A model generated the notes under the pieces. The model searched no databases, was not told the origin of the DNA, and saw only the letters and a program-made list of their open reading frames with translations. This document shows positions 45,828 to 54,517 of a DNA stretch of 64,000 bases, piece after piece (position 1 is the stretch's first letter; each line of letters opens with the position of its first letter). A program made the position numbers and the translations under genes. The stretch is from Candidatus Zhuqueibacterota bacterium (lineage in GTDB: Bacteria > Zhuqueibacterota > Zhuqueibacteria > Oceanimicrobiales > Oceanimicrobiaceae), in NCBI GenBank assembly GCA_029262005.1, contig JAJDAG010000182.1:1-64000 (forward strand), in the 5' to 3' direction.

Positions 45828-46193
45828 ATGGAATATTCTTCAATAAATCTGATAGACAAGTTTTCAATGTTCTCGGAACATTGGTCTCCGAAAGTCATCG
45901 CCGAAATGAATCACTACCAATTCAAGCTGGTAAAGGTCCAGGGTGATTTTGTATGGCATCGGCATAATGAAACAGATGAAGTGTTCATTGTGGTGCTGGG
46001 AGAAGTGACAATCGAGTTTCGCGATGGGCATGTGAAGCTGTCTGAGGGTGAACTGTTCGTCATTCCTAAAGGAAAAGAGCACAAACCCTATTCAACGGAC
46101 GAGTGTTGTATTCTACTGGTTGAACCGAAAGGTGTGGTTAATACGGGCGATTCTATTAATGGGTTAACTGCCAAAAATGATGTCTGGGTTTAG
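45828..46193 (+). CDS. Cupin domain-containing protein
   Basis: 121 aa from the ATG at 45828; the open frame reaches back to 45795, but the family begins near MEYSSINLIDKFSMF. One cupin barrel is visible: metal-type WHRHNETDE (two His and a Glu) and the second motif PKGKEHKPYS with a His. Small single-cupin proteins bind metals and act on varied small molecules; no substrate is suggested. It stands between glyQS and a convergent phosphoesterase gene. Confidence 0.85.
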   Translation: MEYSSINLIDKFSMFSEHWSPKVIAEMNHYQFKLVKVQGDFVWHRHNETDEVFIVVLGEVTIEFRDGHVKLSEGELFVIPKGKEHKPYSTDECCILLVEPKGVVNTGDSINGLTAKNDVWV

Positions 46194-46270
46194 GCGGCTA
46201 CATCTGTTCACAAAGTCACTTCTTCAAAAAATCTTAGGGGCGAAAAAGCGATGTATTGAGGCTCTATAAC

Positions 46271-47089
46271 TCAGTACTTCCCTCTCGCTCTTTCCTTCTC
46301 CGGTAAAATTTCAAGGCAGGTTGTCCACCAACCCGTCCGGACTGTTTCGATAAACTCCGACGGAATTTCTTCTGCTTCCATTTCTCTAGCCAACCGCTCA
46401 TGGTCATATTGTAGCGGAACGAATTCAATGTTGATGATCTCATTCGCTGAGAGAATGGCGTACCAGACGCTGGTGGTGCCGTCATTTTCCGGGCGGCCGA
46501 TTACGCCAATATTGGCAAAGAATTTGTCTTTGGCTAACTTTCGTTTCCAGTGAAGCCCTGTGTGCGTAGTTAGAACGATGTCTGCGGCATAGTCGATCAA
46601 CTGTTTTTGCAGAAAATGATCAGGCGTTGTGGACTCCCAGAGGAATTCGTTTGTTTGCCGCGGTGAACCATGGCAAAGAAGAACCCGGTGTCCGGCAAAG
46701 TCGAATCGAATTTCTTTAGGTAATTCCTTTTGCCATTGCTTAAACTTATCGCTGGTATTTGCCAGTGTGTAATTGTAGCTGATTTGTGCGAAATGATTGT
46801 CACGCGGATCGGTGTAACCACACTGGCAATCCGCAAGGTTGTTGCCGATGGAATTGTCGTAGTTGCCTTGCACTACAGCGATGTTGTTGTTGAGAAGAAG
46901 CGGAAACACCTTATCCGGCGTGGGTCCAAAAGCGCCCAGGTCCCCGAGACAAAACAACTGCTGAATGCCTCTGCTGTGCGCGTCTGCAATTAAAGCCTCA
47001 AGCGCGAGATAGTTATTGTACACGCCACCAAAGACGGCTACTTTATTGCTGGTTATTGTTTGGGTCATTACTGAAATTTGGTTTGTCAT
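46271..47089 (-). CDS. Calcineurin-like phosphoesterase-fold protein with altered metal site
   Basis: 272 aa; an internal ATG at 47068 is an alternative start. The fold is recognisable from CLGDLGAFGPTPDKVF, VVQGNYDN, LLCHGSPR and TTHTGLH. However, the first motif SDIHGN appears as GGVYNN, so the usual Asp and His ligands are Gly22 and Tyr24; GNHD is GNYD. The second-half His residues are kept. It may bind one metal, a different cofactor, or have lost phosphatase activity. It is the last gene downstream of arsM on the same strand, 85 bp away, with a long hairpin over its ribosome site. Confidence 0.8.
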   Translation of the reverse strand: MTNQISVMTQTITSNKVAVFGGVYNNYLALEALIADAHSRGIQQLFCLGDLGAFGPTPDKVFPLLLNNNIAVVQGNYDNSIGNNLADCQCGYTDPRDNHFAQISYNYTLANTSDKFKQWQKELPKEIRFDFAGHRVLLCHGSPRQTNEFLWESTTPDHFLQKQLIDYAADIVLTTHTGLHWKRKLAKDKFFANIGVIGRPENDGTTSVWYAILSANEIINIEFVPLQYDHERLAREMEAEEIPSEFIETVRTGWWTTCLEILPEKERARGKY

Positions 47090-47092
47090 TCG

Positions 47093-47133
47093 TTTGCCCT
47101 TCCCGATCTTTTTTCGAGTTCGGGAAGGGCAAA
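47093..47133 (-). promoter_or_regulatory. 14-bp perfect hairpin covering the phosphoesterase ribosome site
   Basis: TTTGCCCTTCCCGA (47093-47106) and TCGGGAAGGGCAAA (47120-47133) are exact reverse complements with a 13-nt loop. On the minus-strand transcript the stem contains GGGAAGGG about 8 nt before the ATG at 47089, so it would sequester the ribosome site. No T-tract follows the stem in the minus-strand direction, so a terminator is less likely. Confidence 0.65.
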
Positions 47134-47174
47134 TTTAGTTTGGTTGAGAGAGGCGTAAAGGCTGAACGAACTTT

Positions 47175-48365
47175 CTAACAGCAGTCCGGGCCACAGGCAG
47201 CGCCATCGCTTGATTTGGTCACATCGTATTCGAGCCCTTTTGTCTCCCGTGGGTGCCGTCTTGCCGATTTAGTGCATGCAAAATTTTCTGCTGCTTCATT
47301 CGGGATTTCTGCGTAAGGCGATATCGGTACAATCTGTTCTGAGTAAGGTGCTTTTTTATAAATGTTGAAGGTTTTATCACAAACAGCCATGCGTTCACCA
47401 CGATAGAGGGTGTGTCCATCGTCATCAATTACGGCTTTCCACGGCCCTTTGTAAATCACGGCTTGATTGTGCTCAAGACAGGGGCCTTCTTTGCCTTTGT
47501 AAGCGGTAATGGTTATAGAACGGAATTCGATTCCTTCAACAGTCTGCCACGGCGTGTCTTCACGCTTAAGGATTTCGACGCCATAAAAACCAAGGTCGGA
47601 AAATGCTTGCAAAAATTCATCTTCACGAATCGCACCTGAAATGCAACCGCTCCAAAGTTCCGGATTATTCTTCATGTGCTCCGGCACATCTTCATCCGAG
47701 ACAATGTCTGAAATGGCGACCCGGCCACCTTTTTTCAAGACTCGGTAAATTTCTTCGAATAGCTGTTTTTTTTCTTCATCGCCAACAAGGTTGAGAACAC
47801 AATTTGACACAACCAAATCTATGGAATTATCAGCGATGAGTGGTTTGTTTTTGCGTTGCTCCTCTATAAATTCATCGTATCGCAGCAGGTCCGACGAGTT
47901 TTTGATAGGGTTTTCTTTCAGATAAAGATCGACCAAATCCAGGTCAAGACGCAAGTCCTGGATTTTCCCGCGGCGGAACGCAACATTATGATAGCCGATT
48001 TTGTCGCCAACTTCTTGCAAATAGCTTCTCGACAAAGCGAGCATATCGTCATTCATATCAACACCGATTACACGACCTTCCTTGCCAACCATTTGCGAGA
48101 CAATGTAGCATATTTTTCCGGTCCCGCTGCCCAAATCCAGAACGGTTTCACTTTGTTGAACATAGCGTGAGGGGTCGCCACATCCGTAGTCGCGTTCGAT
48201 AATCTCTTTGGGAATTACTTGCAGATAACTTTGGTCATAGTCGACCGGGCAACACAGCGCCGCTTCCTGGATTTGCGCACCCGCTCCGTAGCGTTCGCGT
48301 ACCGCCTTTTCGACTCCCAGCTTCTCGGGAGTGAGGATAGATTTTCCGTTTGTTTCAGTCGTCAT
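47175..48365 (-). CDS. arsM: Arsenite methyltransferase ArsM, with C-terminal extension
   Basis: 396 aa from the ATG at 48365 (AAAGGAA upstream). The open frame extends to 48440 but that would overlap the radical SAM gene. The SAM site is VLDLGSGTGK (75-84). The ArsM cysteines are recognisable: CC at 38-39, Cys62 in YGCGDP, Cys189 in SNCVLNL and Cys241 in SGCISGA. In characterised ArsM the last three bind trivalent arsenic. About 100 residues beyond the core form an extra domain (YKGPWKAVIDDDGHTLYRG), and the chain ends CGPDCC, a further potential metalloid ligand. It should methylate As(III) with SAM. It lies 14 bp after the radical SAM gene in an operon. Confidence 0.9.
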   Translation of the reverse strand: MTTETNGKSILTPEKLGVEKAVRERYGAGAQIQEAALCCPVDYDQSYLQVIPKEIIERDYGCGDPSRYVQQSETVLDLGSGTGKICYIVSQMVGKEGRVIGVDMNDDMLALSRSYLQEVGDKIGYHNVAFRRGKIQDLRLDLDLVDLYLKENPIKNSSDLLRYDEFIEEQRKNKPLIADNSIDLVVSNCVLNLVGDEEKKQLFEEIYRVLKKGGRVAISDIVSDEDVPEHMKNNPELWSGCISGAIREDEFLQAFSDLGFYGVEILKREDTPWQTVEGIEFRSITITAYKGKEGPCLEHNQAVIYKGPWKAVIDDDGHTLYRGERMAVCDKTFNIYKKAPYSEQIVPISPYAEIPNEAAENFACTKSARRHPRETKGLEYDVTKSSDGAACGPDCC

Positions 48366-48379
48366 TATTATTCCTTTGT

Positions 48380-49339
48380 TTATGAATTTGATGCTGAAAA
48401 ATTGTGGCAGATGGCCCCTGAAATATAACAGGTATAGCACGCCTGATTATTGTCGAGTGGAAATGGTGAAAATGCACCTTTGAGTGTTTCAGAAATCCTG
48501 GCTTCCGGATAATCGATTAGAATGGGGCAAACGTAAACGCCTTTATCTGTGACCATTCGACTGCGTGTGCACTGCAGCAAGTTGTCATCGTAATCGCGCA
48601 TCATTTCCAGGGTGATATGTTCGTATTGTTCGTAGCCGCGACTGCGTACTTTTTCCCGTCCAATGCGCAACGGCGGTATTATCTTAATTCGCGGCCGAGT
48701 ATATTCAATTCCCTTCATAATTTCCATAAAACCGTCAAATATTTTCTCTGTTTCATGGTCCTCCCAGGTTTGGGCTACGGTGATAATCGGTAAAAATCCG
48801 TGTGTTACCAGATTTCTAAGACCATTGAGTGCTTTGTCAAAACTCCCGTTGCCACGGATTCGGTCGTTTGATTCAGCATTACAACCATCCAGGCTGACCC
48901 GTATTTCAAGTGAAAATCGCGTCTGCTCAGAAATGGCCTGTAGGCGCTTTGCTGTGCGTTCACGGATAAGAATGCCGTTGGTAAGCACCGTTGCGGGACC
49001 CATTTCAAGTGTGTCCTGCAGAATGGCAAACATATCCTGATTCATAAAAGGTTCGCCACCTGTGAAGTAGTATTCTTTAACGCCAAGCTCTTTGGATTCG
49101 TCAAGAAATGTCTTGACTGTTTCACGCGGCATAAATCCAAAATTGTGATTTTTCGGGCTGCAACTAATGAAGCAATGCGTACACCATAAGTTACAAATGG
49201 TTCCACCTACCTGAAACCAGAGTGTATCCAGGCTGTGTAGTGGCGCCCACGGAATCTCATCATCAGGCGCCTGATGGGGGGCGGCCTGTTCGTGCCTGCC
49301 GTTGTTCAAGCTGTTTTTGGCAAATTTTTCGCTGGTCAA
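48380..49339 (-). CDS. Radical SAM protein with C-terminal Cys cluster
   Basis: 319 aa from a TTG whose TTGA overlaps the flavoprotein stop. The radical SAM motif is CNLWCTHC (Cys49, 53, 56; CX3CX2C), and GGEP at 94-97 is the SAM-binding element. Five C-terminal Cys (257, 271, 301, 304, 311) suggest a SPASM-like auxiliary iron-sulfur cluster. It is not the classic ArsS sequence, so the reaction is unknown. Its place between a flavoprotein and ArsM suggests it forms or modifies an organoarsenic (C-As) product, or modifies a peptide. This is inference from context. Confidence 0.88.
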   Translation of the reverse strand: MTSEKFAKNSLNNGRHEQAAPHQAPDDEIPWAPLHSLDTLWFQVGGTICNLWCTHCFISCSPKNHNFGFMPRETVKTFLDESKELGVKEYYFTGGEPFMNQDMFAILQDTLEMGPATVLTNGILIRERTAKRLQAISEQTRFSLEIRVSLDGCNAESNDRIRGNGSFDKALNGLRNLVTHGFLPIITVAQTWEDHETEKIFDGFMEIMKGIEYTRPRIKIIPPLRIGREKVRSRGYEQYEHITLEMMRDYDDNLLQCTRSRMVTDKGVYVCPILIDYPEARISETLKGAFSPFPLDNNQACYTCYISGAICHNFSASNS

Positions 49340-50598
49340 TTTGTTACCTGTTGCTGTTGTAATGATTCTTTGTGCAAGTCCAGATCTTTATTTTTTGTGA
49401 TGAGTGTAAAAACTTCCACGATTTGTTTTAGACCCGCTCTGATGAGGAAAGTCGAGTTTCTACCATAGCTTTTGTTGCCGACGATGTAGAAATTCGGTTC
49501 AGGGTTTCTGAGTGTTTCCGGCCCCATACTTGTTTGAGCGAGGCAGTCTGCTGAGTTGTCTGTGCCAAGTAAAGCTGCTGCTAATTTCATTGGGCCGCGG
49601 CTGGCGTAGCATTCATGTACTTGAAGTTCACGGTAAAGGCTGTTGTCCGGACTGTAACCGACATTGGCAATAATCTTGTCGACTGTAACCGCCTCAGGCA
49701 CACCGGCAGTATTTATTGTAACAAGAAAGTTGTCCCTTTTTCTGGAGTATGCCACAGACTCAATAGTTGTATGCGTCAGGAACCGGATGTCTTTGTTCGT
49801 TGTTGCTGCGGAATTCGCCTGCTGAGTCAGCCGAACTCTCCCTTCAAGTTGATCGTTGTTGATGACGGGAATTGGCCTCTGTGCTTTGCCGCGAGAGACC
49901 CAAATAAGCGAGGTACTGGGTTCTTGTTGAATTAATTTTTGAAAGTCACAAACCGTGGTTGCCGCCGAGTATCCGGTTCCAATGAGAAGAGTTTTTTTGC
50001 CGGCGAAAAGGGGTCGGTCTTTGCCAACAATATCGCGCAAATGGTAATCTATTTTGTTACGCCAGGCGCTTTCCCCAAGTGCTGGAATACCGCCGTCACC
50101 AAGCGAATTGGGATTGGCGTAAACCCCTGAGGCGTCAATCACGATATCCGTTGTGTGAATTGCCTCAACCCCGTCCTGGCTACGGATTAGTAATTGGAAC
50201 GGGTAGAAAGTTCTTTTGCTATCTCCGAGCAGCTCGCCTTTAAAAATTTGTTTTCTGCCGATGTGTACAACCTCTGTATCAGGGTGAATTGTGGGAGCCA
50301 GTTCAGGTAATTGGCTGAGCGGCTCAAGGTACTTCGTTACGAACTGTTCACCTGATAAGAGTTGGCTCGGAGCAGGTTCATCCCAGGTTGGTAGGTTTCG
50401 ATGAAGTGTCAGAGCGCCAAGACCGGAGTGGTTCATTTCCCATGGCGAAAATAGTTGAACGTGGCCCCAACAACGGATATTCTCACCAACCCTGCCCTTG
50501 TCAAAAACCGTGACTCTATAACCCAGTTTGACCGCATAAAGCGCGGCTTCAAGCCCAATGGGCCCTGCACCAATAATTGTAATTCTCTTTTGTGACAT
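49336..50598 (-). CDS. FAD/NAD(P)-binding oxidoreductase (flavoprotein monooxygenase/reductase-like)
   Basis: 420 aa from the ATG at 50598 (AAGGGA upstream); the frame extends to 50628. The FAD-binding Rossmann motif GAGPIG is at residues 10-15, and a second dinucleotide motif GTGYSA lies near residue 205. The architecture resembles the lysine/ornithine N-hydroxylase and FMO-like group or thioredoxin-reductase-like enzymes, but no redox CxxC is present, which argues against a disulfide reductase. A likely role is to oxidise or reduce an intermediate of the ArsM/radical SAM pathway. It is the second gene of the operon, after the SelW-like gene. Confidence 0.82.
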   Translation of the reverse strand: MSQKRITIIGAGPIGLEAALYAVKLGYRVTVFDKGRVGENIRCWGHVQLFSPWEMNHSGLGALTLHRNLPTWDEPAPSQLLSGEQFVTKYLEPLSQLPELAPTIHPDTEVVHIGRKQIFKGELLGDSKRTFYPFQLLIRSQDGVEAIHTTDIVIDASGVYANPNSLGDGGIPALGESAWRNKIDYHLRDIVGKDRPLFAGKKTLLIGTGYSAATTVCDFQKLIQQEPSTSLIWVSRGKAQRPIPVINNDQLEGRVRLTQQANSAATTNKDIRFLTHTTIESVAYSRKRDNFLVTINTAGVPEAVTVDKIIANVGYSPDNSLYRELQVHECYASRGPMKLAAALLGTDNSADCLAQTSMGPETLRNPEPNFYIVGNKSYGRNSTFLIRAGLKQIVEVFTLITKNKDLDLHKESLQQQQVTN

Positions 50599-50622
50599 AT
50601 TTTTTCCCTTGCTGTAACCTGA

Positions 50623-50646
50623 ACACATGCACGCATATGCATGTGT
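50623..50646. promoter_or_regulatory. 24-bp palindrome upstream of the flavoprotein gene
   Basis: ACACATGCA (50623-50631) and TGCATGTGT (50638-50646) are perfect 9-bp arms with a 6-bp spacer; GCATATGC (50633-50640) is a second nested palindrome. It sits 25-48 bp before the flavoprotein ATG, where a repressor such as the neighbouring Rrf2 protein could act. Confidence 0.5.
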
Positions 50647-50783
50647 GGAAAAGACAACAAGAATCCACTGGTTATTTATTCCTATTATTTACAGGATTAT
50701 TGTGATTGTCAGTTGTGTCGGGTAGTTATCTGGTTGCTGCAGAAAGTGAACTCAACTGGTCCTGCATATGGTGATTTCTAAAC

Positions 50784-50999
50784 TTAAAATTGTGTAAATA
50801 TTTCTTCGTGATTTGGGAATCGTCCAAGCGCTTTTTTGGAAAAAATAAGGGTACCATCTTTAACTACTTCAAAAACGCCGCCTTGCCCTTCAATTAAAGT
50901 GACTTCAACATCCGCGTATTTTGATTCAATATCTGCCTTCAAACTGGAGGCTGTTGGGTAGTAGTTTCACATGACACAATATTCAATCGATACTTTCAA
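50784..50999 (-). CDS. SelW/Rdx-family selenoprotein (in-frame UGA as Sec11, CxxU)
   Basis: 71 residues including Sec, from a TTG at 50999 with GGAG upstream, to a TAA at 50784. Translation gives MKVSIEYCVM, UGA (50969-50967), NYYPTASSLKADIESKY and then VEVTLIEGQGGVFEV. This is the SelT/SelW/SelH (Rdx) thioredoxin-like pattern: CxxU redox motif after the first strand, a long helix, then a Gly-rich turn. Both sides of the UGA match the family in one frame, so read-through is needed. A bSECIS-like hairpin follows. Standard annotation would miss the gene entirely. It is upstream of the flavoprotein, radical SAM and arsM genes on the same strand (185-bp gap), and may supply a redox or metalloid-binding function. 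Confidence 0.85.
50935..50951 (-). promoter_or_regulatory. Putative bSECIS hairpin for the SelW-like gene
   Basis: On the minus strand GCCU (50951-50948) pairs with AGGC (50938-50935). After a C-A mismatch, C-G closes an AGUUU loop (50945-50941) that starts 21 nt after the UGA. The loop sequence and spacing are almost the same as in the ArsC-like gene. Confidence 0.6.
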
Positions 51000-51208
51000 T
51001 GCTCTACTCCGTTTGTTTATGGGCTTTGTGTTATTTTTTTAGGAAGATAAATATTTTCGTGGGAAAAGTAAAGCAAATTGAATAGGAGTCGAACCAAACT
51101 CCTTTTGAAGGGAGACAGGGTTTAGTTCGGCCGGAGCAAAAAGCAGAGGGATGTTGGTTGCGAGCTGCCGGATTGACCGTGAATTTCAAATACGATGAAT
51201 TATCCAGC

Positions 51209-51661
51209 TTAGTCACCCTGTTTGTTTGCGATTTGCTCTAAAATATTTTTGGTAATTTCGTTAAGAGTTACTTTTGAAAGTGCATTTTCGAGCGCCTGTT
51301 CGGCTTTTTGTAATGGCCCTGCGATGGCGGTTGAAATATTGGCGCCAATAGGGCATTCTGCATTTGGGGTTCTGTATGGGCTATGGAAAACAGTTCTTTC
51401 TTCCACGGCATTGTAAATATCGAAGAGTGTAATGTCTTCCGGGTTTTTGCCAATCTGTGTGCCTCCTGAAGCTCCGGTAATGGTCTTTACAAGTTCTGCT
51501 TTCTTTAGCAAGCCCAAAATTCTTCGAATCACAACCGGGTTGGTATTTACGCTCCAGGCAATGTTTTCTGATGAAACAGACTGTTGTGGCTTTCTGAAAT
51601 AGACGACTGCGAGACCAACTAAAATATGGATTGCGACAGCAAATTTGCTACTTGACTTCAT
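51209..51661 (-). CDS. Rrf2 family transcriptional regulator
   Basis: 150 aa from the ATG at 51661 (MKSSSKFAVAIHILVGLAV, the usual Rrf2 start); an ATG five codons upstream is possible. The winged-helix DNA-binding domain occupies residues 1-80 with the family motif GASGG (wing). Only one Cys (NAECPIG) is present, so it does not carry the three-Cys [2Fe-2S] site of IscR/NsrR and belongs nearer to the YwnA/CymR type. It lies upstream of the SelW-flavoprotein-radical SAM-arsM genes on the same strand and is the obvious candidate regulator. The 209 bp between it and the SelW-like gene holds no further gene that I can support. Confidence 0.88.
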   Translation of the reverse strand: MKSSSKFAVAIHILVGLAVVYFRKPQQSVSSENIAWSVNTNPVVIRRILGLLKKAELVKTITGASGGTQIGKNPEDITLFDIYNAVEERTVFHSPYRTPNAECPIGANISTAIAGPLQKAEQALENALSKVTLNEITKNILEQIANKQGD

Positions 51662-51850
51662 TGGCTCGTTCCTCATTTTCGTTTTTCTGAAACCAAGTTA
51701 GTTACAGTATATTTTGATTCCTAATGAAGATATTGTGGGAAATGTTGCATTGGCTTAAAGGGAGATTTTAAATAATTAGATGGCTATCATCTCCAGCGGT
51801 ATTGGTACTTGCGTTTGGATTGATATTTTTGGAAGCGGTCAGTATATTTG

Positions 51851-54517
51851 TTATTTCAGCAGTGTGAGTTTGCTTCTGGAAAGATGAAGCGAGTTGAAAA
51901 GGAGTTTAAATGTACCCGCGGTTTGCGCCCTGAATTGAGTTCGGATTGGGAGGAGAACAACACGGCCACTGCCCTGTGGCAGGTCAATGGCTGCTGGCAG
52001 GTTAGAGATTTCAAGATTTGCCGGCGGGAAAAATGACCTGGGCAGAAAGGTGGCTGCTACACCAATTCGCCTCACCCAGGGTCTGGGGCGCAGAATTGGA
52101 CCTGCTGTCAGCGCAGCTATTGCCGTGTTTGACATACCGAAGGCAATGGGCTCGCCCACGTCCACTCGAAGTTCAAAAAAGTGCGTGGAATTATTTTTGT
52201 GTGAATTTGCAGCCCGCAAAACATCAATGGGCAATTCTAGTTTTTCAACCAGAAGTTTGCAACTCTGCCCAAGGGCTATCAAGGTACCGCCATTGAGTAC
52301 AAATTGTTTCAGATGCAGTAAGCCAGACTCGCCAATTCCAGCGACATAAGGTTGTGGGGGAAGCGGCCGACCCGTTTGCGCCTCTTGACCAAGCCAACCG
52401 TGCAAAACAATTTCAGGCGGCATATCTGGAAAAATGATGGCATCATATTTCCCGGTAAGGTCGCGTTTGCTAACAGTGTGGCTGTAGATAATGTCAAAGT
52501 TAAATTCGTACTTTTCCAATAAATACTGCGTCCACCCCGGATCGGGTTCTGGGTGCCAGGGCTGATATAGTGCAACGGCGGGTTTTTTCAAACGAAGAAC
52601 CTGTTGCTGCTGAAAACGGAATTTTGTTTGCCGCACCTCAAGTGTAAGCTCCTGAGCGAGAAAGGCAAGCAGGTTCGCCGAGATCTCTTTTCGGGGCATT
52701 ACGATTGTGCCTCTTTCGAAAGAGCGCCCGTCTTCTTCAATGTCTTCCGTCAGCCAAAAGATCTTTTTGTTTTTTTCGAGCATTCGGTTGACGGCGATGG
52801 TGCTTTGATTGTCTGCATGATTGATGATATAATGCCCGGAACCTTCTTTTCGCAGCGCAATAGCGGGGGGCTGAAAAACATGGACACGCTTCAGGTTTTC
52901 GATGTTTACTGTTTCTGCCCTGTCTACGCTGACTTCCAGCACCTGCGGGAGCGAGAAGGCGATTGGCGGTTGCGGACTGCCTGGGTCATTCCCCGCCGGC
53001 ATTTGCAATTGCTCTGCATAGCTATCAAAAATGTGATGAATATAGCGTTCAAATGGCTGCGCCGGTAATATGACGTAATCTTCTGGTTCGAGCTTTGAGC
53101 CTGGTGTGAGAGTCGTTTTTGCCTTATGTATTTCAATCCCCTGGGAATACAGTGACTGCAGGAACTTTCGGGCAGCATGGGGCGACTTTTGCTTTGCCGG
53201 GATGATATATGCCGGTTGCGGTTTGGACTTGGCCGTGTTATGGTGTTGCTTGTTCATCTGGCAGTAGTCGCGAATGATTTGTTCTTTGTCAGCAGACACG
53301 GCTTGCAAAAGATCTTTGATCAAATCGGTTTGGCTTCGAATGAAATCTCCCATACGCCACCAACCACCATTCCAGTCGCTCAGCAATTCCAGGCCCGGCT
53401 CGTCTGATTGTATAATGCTGCCTTTGGCAAAATATAAAGGCGATGCATAATGCGTGTTGGCAATTTGTGCGGTCTGGGCAATAATGTTGCGCAGCAAAAA
53501 AGAGCGCGTCAGTGTGCCCGGAGGCTCTTGAGCAGGCCTGTTTTGAATGGCAAGCCCTGCCATGCCGCGCGAATGCATTTTTGCAATGATGCTTTTTGTC
53601 AGATCATTAAGTTTGGCTTGAACGTATGTGTTGACCACTTTGTCATTAGTGGTCACGTTTTCCAGGACAAGCCGGCTGTTTCTTGAACGCCGAGCGCCAA
53701 CCTGCAAAACAACCTGTGGAAACCAGTATTGAAAAATTTGTCTGACCACGGATTTTGTTTCTACAGTGTTTAGCATGTCCCAATCAAATTCTATATCATC
53801 ACCAGCATACAAATGCGTCCGGTTCGGTATTGTCGCCCCTTCGTGCGGCAACCCAACATACTTGTTGTACCAGAGCGCGACTTTGTCGATCGCGTCCGGG
53901 TTGAGAGATGGAATCAACAGCAGAATGACCTTGCTTAGCAAGGCATCAATGTTTTTTTGCGGCTCTGACGCAAAAAAGTGAGCCAGTGCAAACACACCCT
54001 GACTGGTGCTCACCTGTCTGCTGTTGGCATTTAATATAATCATAACCACTACTTTGTCTTCTTTGGCTAGAAGCTCTATGTCGTCGTCCGTCATGTGGGC
54101 CGGGTTTGCTGCTTGCTTTTGATAGTTTTTGTACAAAGCCAGATTTTTGATGTTTGGGGCTGAAGAGATTATCGCCATCATCATGGGTCGTTTTTCTGTG
54201 GACTCACCAATTTGCTGAAGTTTGACTCGTTCAGTATTTTCTTCCAGCATTTTCAGGTATTCGGTAATTTCCTGCCACCCGGCGAGTTTTCTGTTGGTTT
54301 CGGGACGATAGCCCAGGAATTCATTGGGAGTTTGGATTTGTGAGTTGCTTGTAGAAGGCGTTGCTAACAGAAAAAACAGAAAAGGAATTATCAGAGTTAT
54401 ACGCAAAGGGACCCAGATTTGTCCGGTGCGTGGGCGTAGCGCTGCCCATTGCAGCGGGCGCCTGTTTTTTCTGCTGCCCAAACTCAGTACCCGGGTTAGT
54501 TTTTCTGGTTGATTCAT
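51851..54517 (-). CDS. M14 carboxypeptidase-family protein, probable pseudoenzyme
   Basis: 888 aa from the ATG at 54517, 21 bp after the M28 peptidase gene; an upstream start at 54574 would overlap that gene. A membrane anchor or signal (LRITLIIPFLFFLLATPS, about residues 38-55) is followed by the M14-like domain (about 75-330). Family features remain, such as IGESTEKRPMMMAIISS and LLLIPSLNPDAID. The zinc ligands do not: the HxxE site aligns with Asn165 and Gln168, and the third His (usually YDVHQMG) aligns with Gly274 in LQVGARR. So it probably binds no zinc. The C-terminal part contains a type 1 glutamine amidotransferase-like or beta-rich region typical of long M14 proteins. It may act as a binding protein. 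Confidence 0.8.
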   Translation of the reverse strand: MNQPEKLTRVLSLGSRKNRRPLQWAALRPRTGQIWVPLRITLIIPFLFFLLATPSTSNSQIQTPNEFLGYRPETNRKLAGWQEITEYLKMLEENTERVKLQQIGESTEKRPMMMAIISSAPNIKNLALYKNYQKQAANPAHMTDDDIELLAKEDKVVVMIILNANSRQVSTSQGVFALAHFFASEPQKNIDALLSKVILLLIPSLNPDAIDKVALWYNKYVGLPHEGATIPNRTHLYAGDDIEFDWDMLNTVETKSVVRQIFQYWFPQVVLQVGARRSRNSRLVLENVTTNDKVVNTYVQAKLNDLTKSIIAKMHSRGMAGLAIQNRPAQEPPGTLTRSFLLRNIIAQTAQIANTHYASPLYFAKGSIIQSDEPGLELLSDWNGGWWRMGDFIRSQTDLIKDLLQAVSADKEQIIRDYCQMNKQHHNTAKSKPQPAYIIPAKQKSPHAARKFLQSLYSQGIEIHKAKTTLTPGSKLEPEDYVILPAQPFERYIHHIFDSYAEQLQMPAGNDPGSPQPPIAFSLPQVLEVSVDRAETVNIENLKRVHVFQPPAIALRKEGSGHYIINHADNQSTIAVNRMLEKNKKIFWLTEDIEEDGRSFERGTIVMPRKEISANLLAFLAQELTLEVRQTKFRFQQQQVLRLKKPAVALYQPWHPEPDPGWTQYLLEKYEFNFDIIYSHTVSKRDLTGKYDAIIFPDMPPEIVLHGWLGQEAQTGRPLPPQPYVAGIGESGLLHLKQFVLNGGTLIALGQSCKLLVEKLELPIDVLRAANSHKNNSTHFFELRVDVGEPIAFGMSNTAIAALTAGPILRPRPWVRRIGVAATFLPRSFFPPANLEISNLPAAIDLPQGSGRVVLLPIRTQFRAQTAGTFKLLFNSLHLSRSKLTLLK

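Follow-up and report, generated by a model that had tools for sequence, protein, structure and literature searches.

The 64,000-nucleotide stretch of DNA analysed here, referred to as the window, carries on its minus strand what we regard with high confidence as a functional SelW-like gene (selW), whose in-frame UGA is predicted to be decoded as selenocysteine (Sec) under the direction of a downstream hairpin, whose product is predicted to be a CxxU oxidoreductase, and which is probably transcribed apart from the arsM-containing gene set that follows it. The gene and its signals are as follows.

50784–50999, minus strand: SelW-like (Rdx family) selenoprotein gene, 71 codons, TTG start, TAA stop
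50967–50969, minus strand: UGA, predicted to encode selenocysteine as the U of CxxU (kept in 44 of 44 phylum matches; Sec machinery encoded)
51007–51010, minus strand: GGAG, likely ribosome binding site judging from the sequence, with a spacing of 7 nt

The first-pass annotation had correctly assigned the gene to 50784–50999 of the minus strand in this reading frame. Translation would start at the TTG at 50999, the only in-frame TGA is codon 11 (the U of C-V-M-U), and the frame ends at a true TAA stop. The frame is absent from the list of open reading frames made with a minimum of 80 aa, because of its internal stop and the size cut-off. A promoter and terminator scan of 50500–51800 gave counts close to chance.

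With the UGA read as Cys, the product scored 73.9 bits against Pfam PF10262 (Rdx; cut-off 22.6) and 100.4 bits against NCBIfam NF041051, ‘SelT/SelW/SelH family (seleno)protein’ (cut-off 88). The NCBIfam search was also run with X in place of the UGA to remove any help from the Cys letter, and the score of 92.7 bits was still above the cut-off. The 60 residues following the UGA reached 76.3 bits on NF041051 by themselves, in an unchanged register. Since the X version passes the cut-off and the part beyond the UGA matches in the same register, the similarity to the Rdx family is beyond chance. The profile searches proposed in the first-pass annotation thus bear out its claim that both halves of the frame belong to this family in a single register, with the UGA at the Sec position of CxxU.

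An alignment of 30 sequences, comprising the window gene and the 29 best-scoring relatives available as loci out of 53 matches, runs unbroken across the UGA site. The redox motif, C8-V-M-U11, lies in the N-terminal part of the protein, and both Cys8 and the Sec position are invariant in this alignment. Two Rdx proteins with solved structures resemble the selW product in sequence over the domain, namely Atu0228 (2fa8, E 1.6e-9) and MIEN1/C17orf37 (2ljk, E 3.8e-7), and a third, mouse SelW (2npb), is weakly similar (E 0.4). In the alignments, the position occupied by UGA in the window gene is Cys in Atu0228 and MIEN1. From these structurally characterized relatives, we infer that the selW product would adopt a thioredoxin-like fold.

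Conservation of the UGA extends well beyond the window. Matches to the selW family were found in 52 of 147 relatives (53 matches in total), and the UGA is retained in 52 of these matches, 51 matches having exactly one in-frame TGA. The match in genome G047 has its TGA just ahead of the matched stretch, beside masked bases, and that in G129 encodes Cys at the site, within a CPRC motif. In a survey of 82 genomes of the phylum, which overlaps with the set of 147 relatives, selW was present in 43 genomes with 44 matches, and all 44 carry the TGA. Homologues ending at this codon, or unconserved beyond it, were named in the first-pass annotation as evidence that would count against a selenoprotein; the homologues instead keep both the UGA and the sequence downstream of it.

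The signal directing the decoding is predicted to lie within the coding sequence.

50935–50951, minus strand: bacterial SECIS hairpin, 17 nt, predicted from covariation, synonymous constraint and a covariance model

The hairpin has seven consensus pairs and a 3-nt loop whose first base is G, and is located 15 nt downstream of the UGA. The alignment used to examine it covers the 37 nt following the TGA in 40 loci, ungapped, and 13 further matches were reserved for a later test. The first loop base, G23 of the alignment, is invariant. Standard pairs occupy 84.6% of the cells, and both sides of the pair have changed in 36 cells. The covariation score of 0.357 was reached by none of 500 shuffles (mean 0.141), and versions of the hairpin slid along the alignment scored at most 0.124. 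Covariation is strongest at columns 18–30, with six pair types, and 19–29, where GC changes to UA. The outer pair, 16–32, fails to form in 15 of the 38 distinct rows; in the window's own stem, columns 20–28 carry a C–A mismatch. Folding of the window strand alone was uninformative, being no better than that of shuffles (z 0.52).

Silent codon positions provide a second line of evidence. In 37 sequences (the 40 minus three near-identical ones), the fraction of pairs with identical residues that also share the synonymous codon is 0.95, 0.98 and 0.67 at codons +7, +8 and +9 after Sec, respectively, compared with 0.33 for an invariant Ser and 0.21–0.24 for two Leu columns elsewhere in selW. A strong synonymous preference was also observed outside the hairpin, which does not account for it, at a Glu codon (GAA, 0.92) five codons before Sec and at an Asn codon (AAC, 0.78) directly after Sec.

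When run over the window with E up to 1, a covariance model built from the 40 loci matched the hairpin alone, at 44.8 bits, a score to which the window's own row in the model contributes. Among the 13 held-out loci, the model matched all 12 Sec genes (21.6–44 bits), and the one Cys gene, the only Cys control, scored 9 bits; these results are supportive and not independent proof of structure, because the model also carries coding conservation. An Rfam scan of 46000–52000 (E up to 5) returned two matches far below their gathering scores and no SECIS. Judging from the covariation and the frozen silent codon positions, the hairpin at 50935–50951 is a bacterial SECIS element, and it falls inside the interval of 50930–50970 where the first-pass annotation had suggested searching for one.

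The genome to which the window belongs (5.77 Mb, 98.7% complete) encodes the machinery needed to use such an element. It has one strong tRNA-Sec (70 bits, L001 1501–1594), on which ARAGORN agrees, with the anticodon TCA, as well as selB (367 bits), selA (569 bits) and selD (411 bits), each above its cut-off. A lack of all Sec machinery, the other finding that the first-pass annotation had held to be damaging to its reading, is therefore not what the genome displays. The selD match (L018) spans 310 positions of a 749-residue open frame, possibly a fusion.

Across the phylum, 50 of 82 genomes yielded a tRNA-Sec at E 1e-8, G034 among them at only 49 bits; 45 candidates per genome were scored, and misses are possible. 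These 50 genomes and that of the window contrast with the available text of PMC9012183, which describes KSB1, the group from which the window is taken to come, as having selA, selB and selD, with selC absent. The selA gene is found in 36 of the 43 phylum genomes with selW, and this co-occurrence adds little, because 27 of the 39 genomes without selW have selA as well. Seven phylum genomes have selW and no selA; selB is above the cut-off in three of them and tRNA-Sec is present in five. Only G064 (L084, 98% complete) has neither, so that its Sec gene is accompanied by no selA, selB over the cut-off or tRNA-Sec at the thresholds used.

Together these data suggest a model of selW expression in which SelB, loaded with Sec-tRNA-Sec, would bind the hairpin 15 nt past the UGA and the UGA would be decoded as selenocysteine. 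The product of this decoding would be a 71-residue thioredoxin-like protein bearing a CxxU site. Given what is typical of the family, it is most likely a selenol/thiol oxidoreductase, which may link Cys8 to Sec11 in a reversible selenenylsulfide.

The surroundings of selW bear on its possible role.

51209–51676, minus strand: Rrf2-family regulator upstream of selW (PF02082); another family genome, L056, has a relative in this position
50623–50646, minus strand: operator-like palindrome, ACACATGCA-TATGCG-TGCATGTGT, with sequence and place shared among family genomes
49336–50598, minus strand: FAD/NAD-binding flavoprotein (Pyr_redox_2, Pyr_redox_3); the listed ORF begins at 50628
48380–49339, minus strand: radical SAM protein (PF04055, 58.1 bits)
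47175–48365, minus strand: ArsM-like arsenite methyltransferase; the listed ORF begins at 48440, with a probable start at 48365
46271–47089, minus strand: metallophosphoesterase (PF12850) with CxC (C88, C90), candidate Car1-like arsenate reductase

Downstream of selW in the window, the genes for the flavoprotein, the radical SAM protein, the ArsM-like methyltransferase and the metallophosphoesterase follow on the same strand. The same order and strand are seen in all five other genomes of the family that have selW, one contig ending inside arsM. Counting the window, selW lies upstream of the set in six of six such genomes, across six genera. This constancy, and the arsenic-related appearance of the neighbours (an ArsM-like protein and a CxC metallophosphoesterase), favour a reading in which the SelW-like protein is dedicated to the neighbouring arsenic pathway and co-transcribed with it, for example as a selenol donor reducing the candidate arsenate reductase or ArsM. 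We nevertheless consider this unlikely, since several observations separate the gene from the set, both within the family and beyond it.

In the window, selW and the flavoprotein gene flank the palindrome ACACATGCATATGCGTGCATGTGT (50646–50623). All eight family genomes, two of them lacking selW, have an ATGCAT element, its second half TGCAT-like, a short distance ahead of the flavoprotein start. A dyad scan found eight of nine positions or better in three of the eight upstream regions (in L058 at another place) and in 15% of shuffles; because this count is not distinctive, the case for an operator-like element rests on the shared sequence and place. Searching the window with the pattern, which was derived from the site itself, found a single exact match, together with the reverse reading of that site. 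We interpret the palindrome as a putative operator governing the four genes as one operon; selW would then be either its own unit or a leader joined by read-through. The location of the palindrome speaks against a common transcript start for selW and the set, and against that only. The same two genomes point away from a dedicated arsenic role in another respect, as G005 and G007 carry the four-gene set without selW; G005 is also without selA and without selB above the cut-off, and has apparently lost the capacity for Sec decoding entirely.

In family f8, selW is present and homologues of the set are found on other contigs or far away, some of them without arsM, so that gene and set occupy different places. 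More broadly, selW adjoins the flavoprotein/radical SAM/arsM set in none of 34 loci from outside the window's family, two of which have an ArsM (32–33% identical) about 7 kb from selW. In the reverse direction, among the loci of the best 80 of 370 radical SAM protein matches, selW was found in at least four, all four from the window's family. The linkage of selW to arsM is thus not conserved beyond close relatives, and our literature search found no report of this neighbourhood. The description of selW as the head of an arsM operon therefore stands for the gene order, selW preceding the set in each of the six family genomes; as to a single operon, the intervening palindrome and the 34 outside loci weaken the case. 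Our preferred reading remains that of a selenoprotein gene probably transcribed apart from the four-gene operon, or joined to it only by read-through.

The company that selW keeps elsewhere also differs from that in the window's family. In 19 of 40 loci, all of the 19 outside the window's family, an M29-type peptidase is encoded directly upstream, which weighs further against a dedicated arsenic role. These peptidase loci lie within L052–L089 (for example, L053 364–1521). Downstream of selW, a class A beta-lactamase-like hydrolase is encoded in 12 of 40 loci and a TPR protein in 9 of 40. An aldehyde dehydrogenase homologue is found near selW in 9 of 40 loci, one of which, with the homologue upstream, is in the window's family. 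As a lead to a partner of selW outside the window's family, the M29-type peptidase is better than arsM.

The four neighbouring genes form an assembly of their own. The flavoprotein gave no NCBIfam match above cut-off, and neither it nor the radical SAM protein has an above-cut-off Pfam or NCBIfam match naming a specific function. The ArsM-like protein scored 376.8 bits on NF040538, below the cut-off of 500, and its Cys 63, 64, 87, 214 and 266 are invariant in eight sequences. With E values up to 1e-30, 17 of the 147 genomes hold a relative of the radical SAM protein. In G005, the flavoprotein and the radical SAM protein are fused in one 734-residue open frame (L092 8119–10323, minus strand), which suggests that the two proteins work together. 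In the survey of the best 80 of 370 radical SAM protein matches, where some contigs end early and counts are lower bounds, a metallophosphoesterase was found in at least 68 loci, the flavoprotein in at least 31, ArsM in at least 11 and a phosphate-transporter homologue in at least 4. Loci combining the radical SAM protein with the CxC metallophosphoesterase span Planctomycetes, Gemmatimonadetes, KSB1 and others in this sample. The set of a sister family (L095 11466–12605, L099 7820–8209) also includes a PHO4 phosphate-transporter homologue and a carboxymuconolactone decarboxylase family protein. The radical SAM/metallophosphoesterase set is thus widespread and apparently unnamed, and perhaps has an arsenic role.

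The CxC of the metallophosphoesterase is present in 67 of 67 relatives spanning the site. The available text of PMC12124457 reports arsenic-methylating isolates with a metallophosphoesterase in the arsM operon that is like the arsenate reductase Car1, in which Cys74 and Cys76 are essential. Car1 of Rufibacter tibetensis and the protein encoded at 46271–47089 share the metallophosphoesterase family, a similar CxC spacing and an arsM nearby, a likeness drawn from the description in that text only; the neighbour differs from Car1 in adjoining a radical SAM gene. By this analogy, the neighbour is a candidate Car1-like arsenate reductase, offered here as a lead. Recruitment of the selW product in the window's family as a reductant for a flavoprotein/radical SAM/ArsM/Car1-like arsenic pathway seems improbable to us; if true, it would imply selenium-dependent arsenic detoxification or organoarsenical synthesis.

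The residue inserted at the UGA cannot be told from sequence, and the relative in G129 has Cys at the site. Readthrough as Cys or Trp, whether partial or constant, is nonetheless very improbable in view of the CxxU position, the SECIS hairpin and the full selABCD set, all of which favour selenocysteine. That the UGA is a real stop in a decaying or chance frame has next to no probability: it is a stop codon and the single-strand folding is unremarkable, but the UGA, the downstream protein and the hairpin are conserved jointly over many genera in the presence of complete Sec machinery, and a pseudogene or chance frame was rejected because conservation continues past the UGA and the codons of the hairpin are frozen.

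Taken as a whole, the first-pass reading is partly supported, being right about the selenoprotein and weaker about the operon. With the selenoprotein reading, a phylum of uncultured bacteria gains a well-supported gene whose SECIS has been tested by covariation. The link between SelW and arsenic genes is local to one bacterial family, which cautions against assigning an arsenic role from a single genome. The flavoprotein, radical SAM and CxC-phosphoesterase neighbours leave more to explain than the selenoprotein does.

SelW-like selenoproteins were described long ago, and the window gene adds one more of them. Within the available text of each source, PMC9312934 describes the PF10262 SelW-like family with CxxU, PMC1794560 reports SelW-like proteins with few Cys homologues in Sec-using bacteria, and PMC2398784 finds the SelW-like family to be, with SelD, the most widespread selenoprotein family in ocean samples. 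According to the corresponding portion of PMC4607533, SelW genes are overlooked by annotation and their SECIS hairpin holds an invariant G. The window gene agrees with the bacterial SelW-like selenoproteins (PF10262, NF041051, TIGR02174) in fold family, length and CxxU site, and likewise in having a SECIS hairpin soon after the UGA, a G in the loop and few Cys homologues. The protein itself is therefore not distinct from those already known, whereas the placement of its gene beside the arsM set is peculiar to the window's family.
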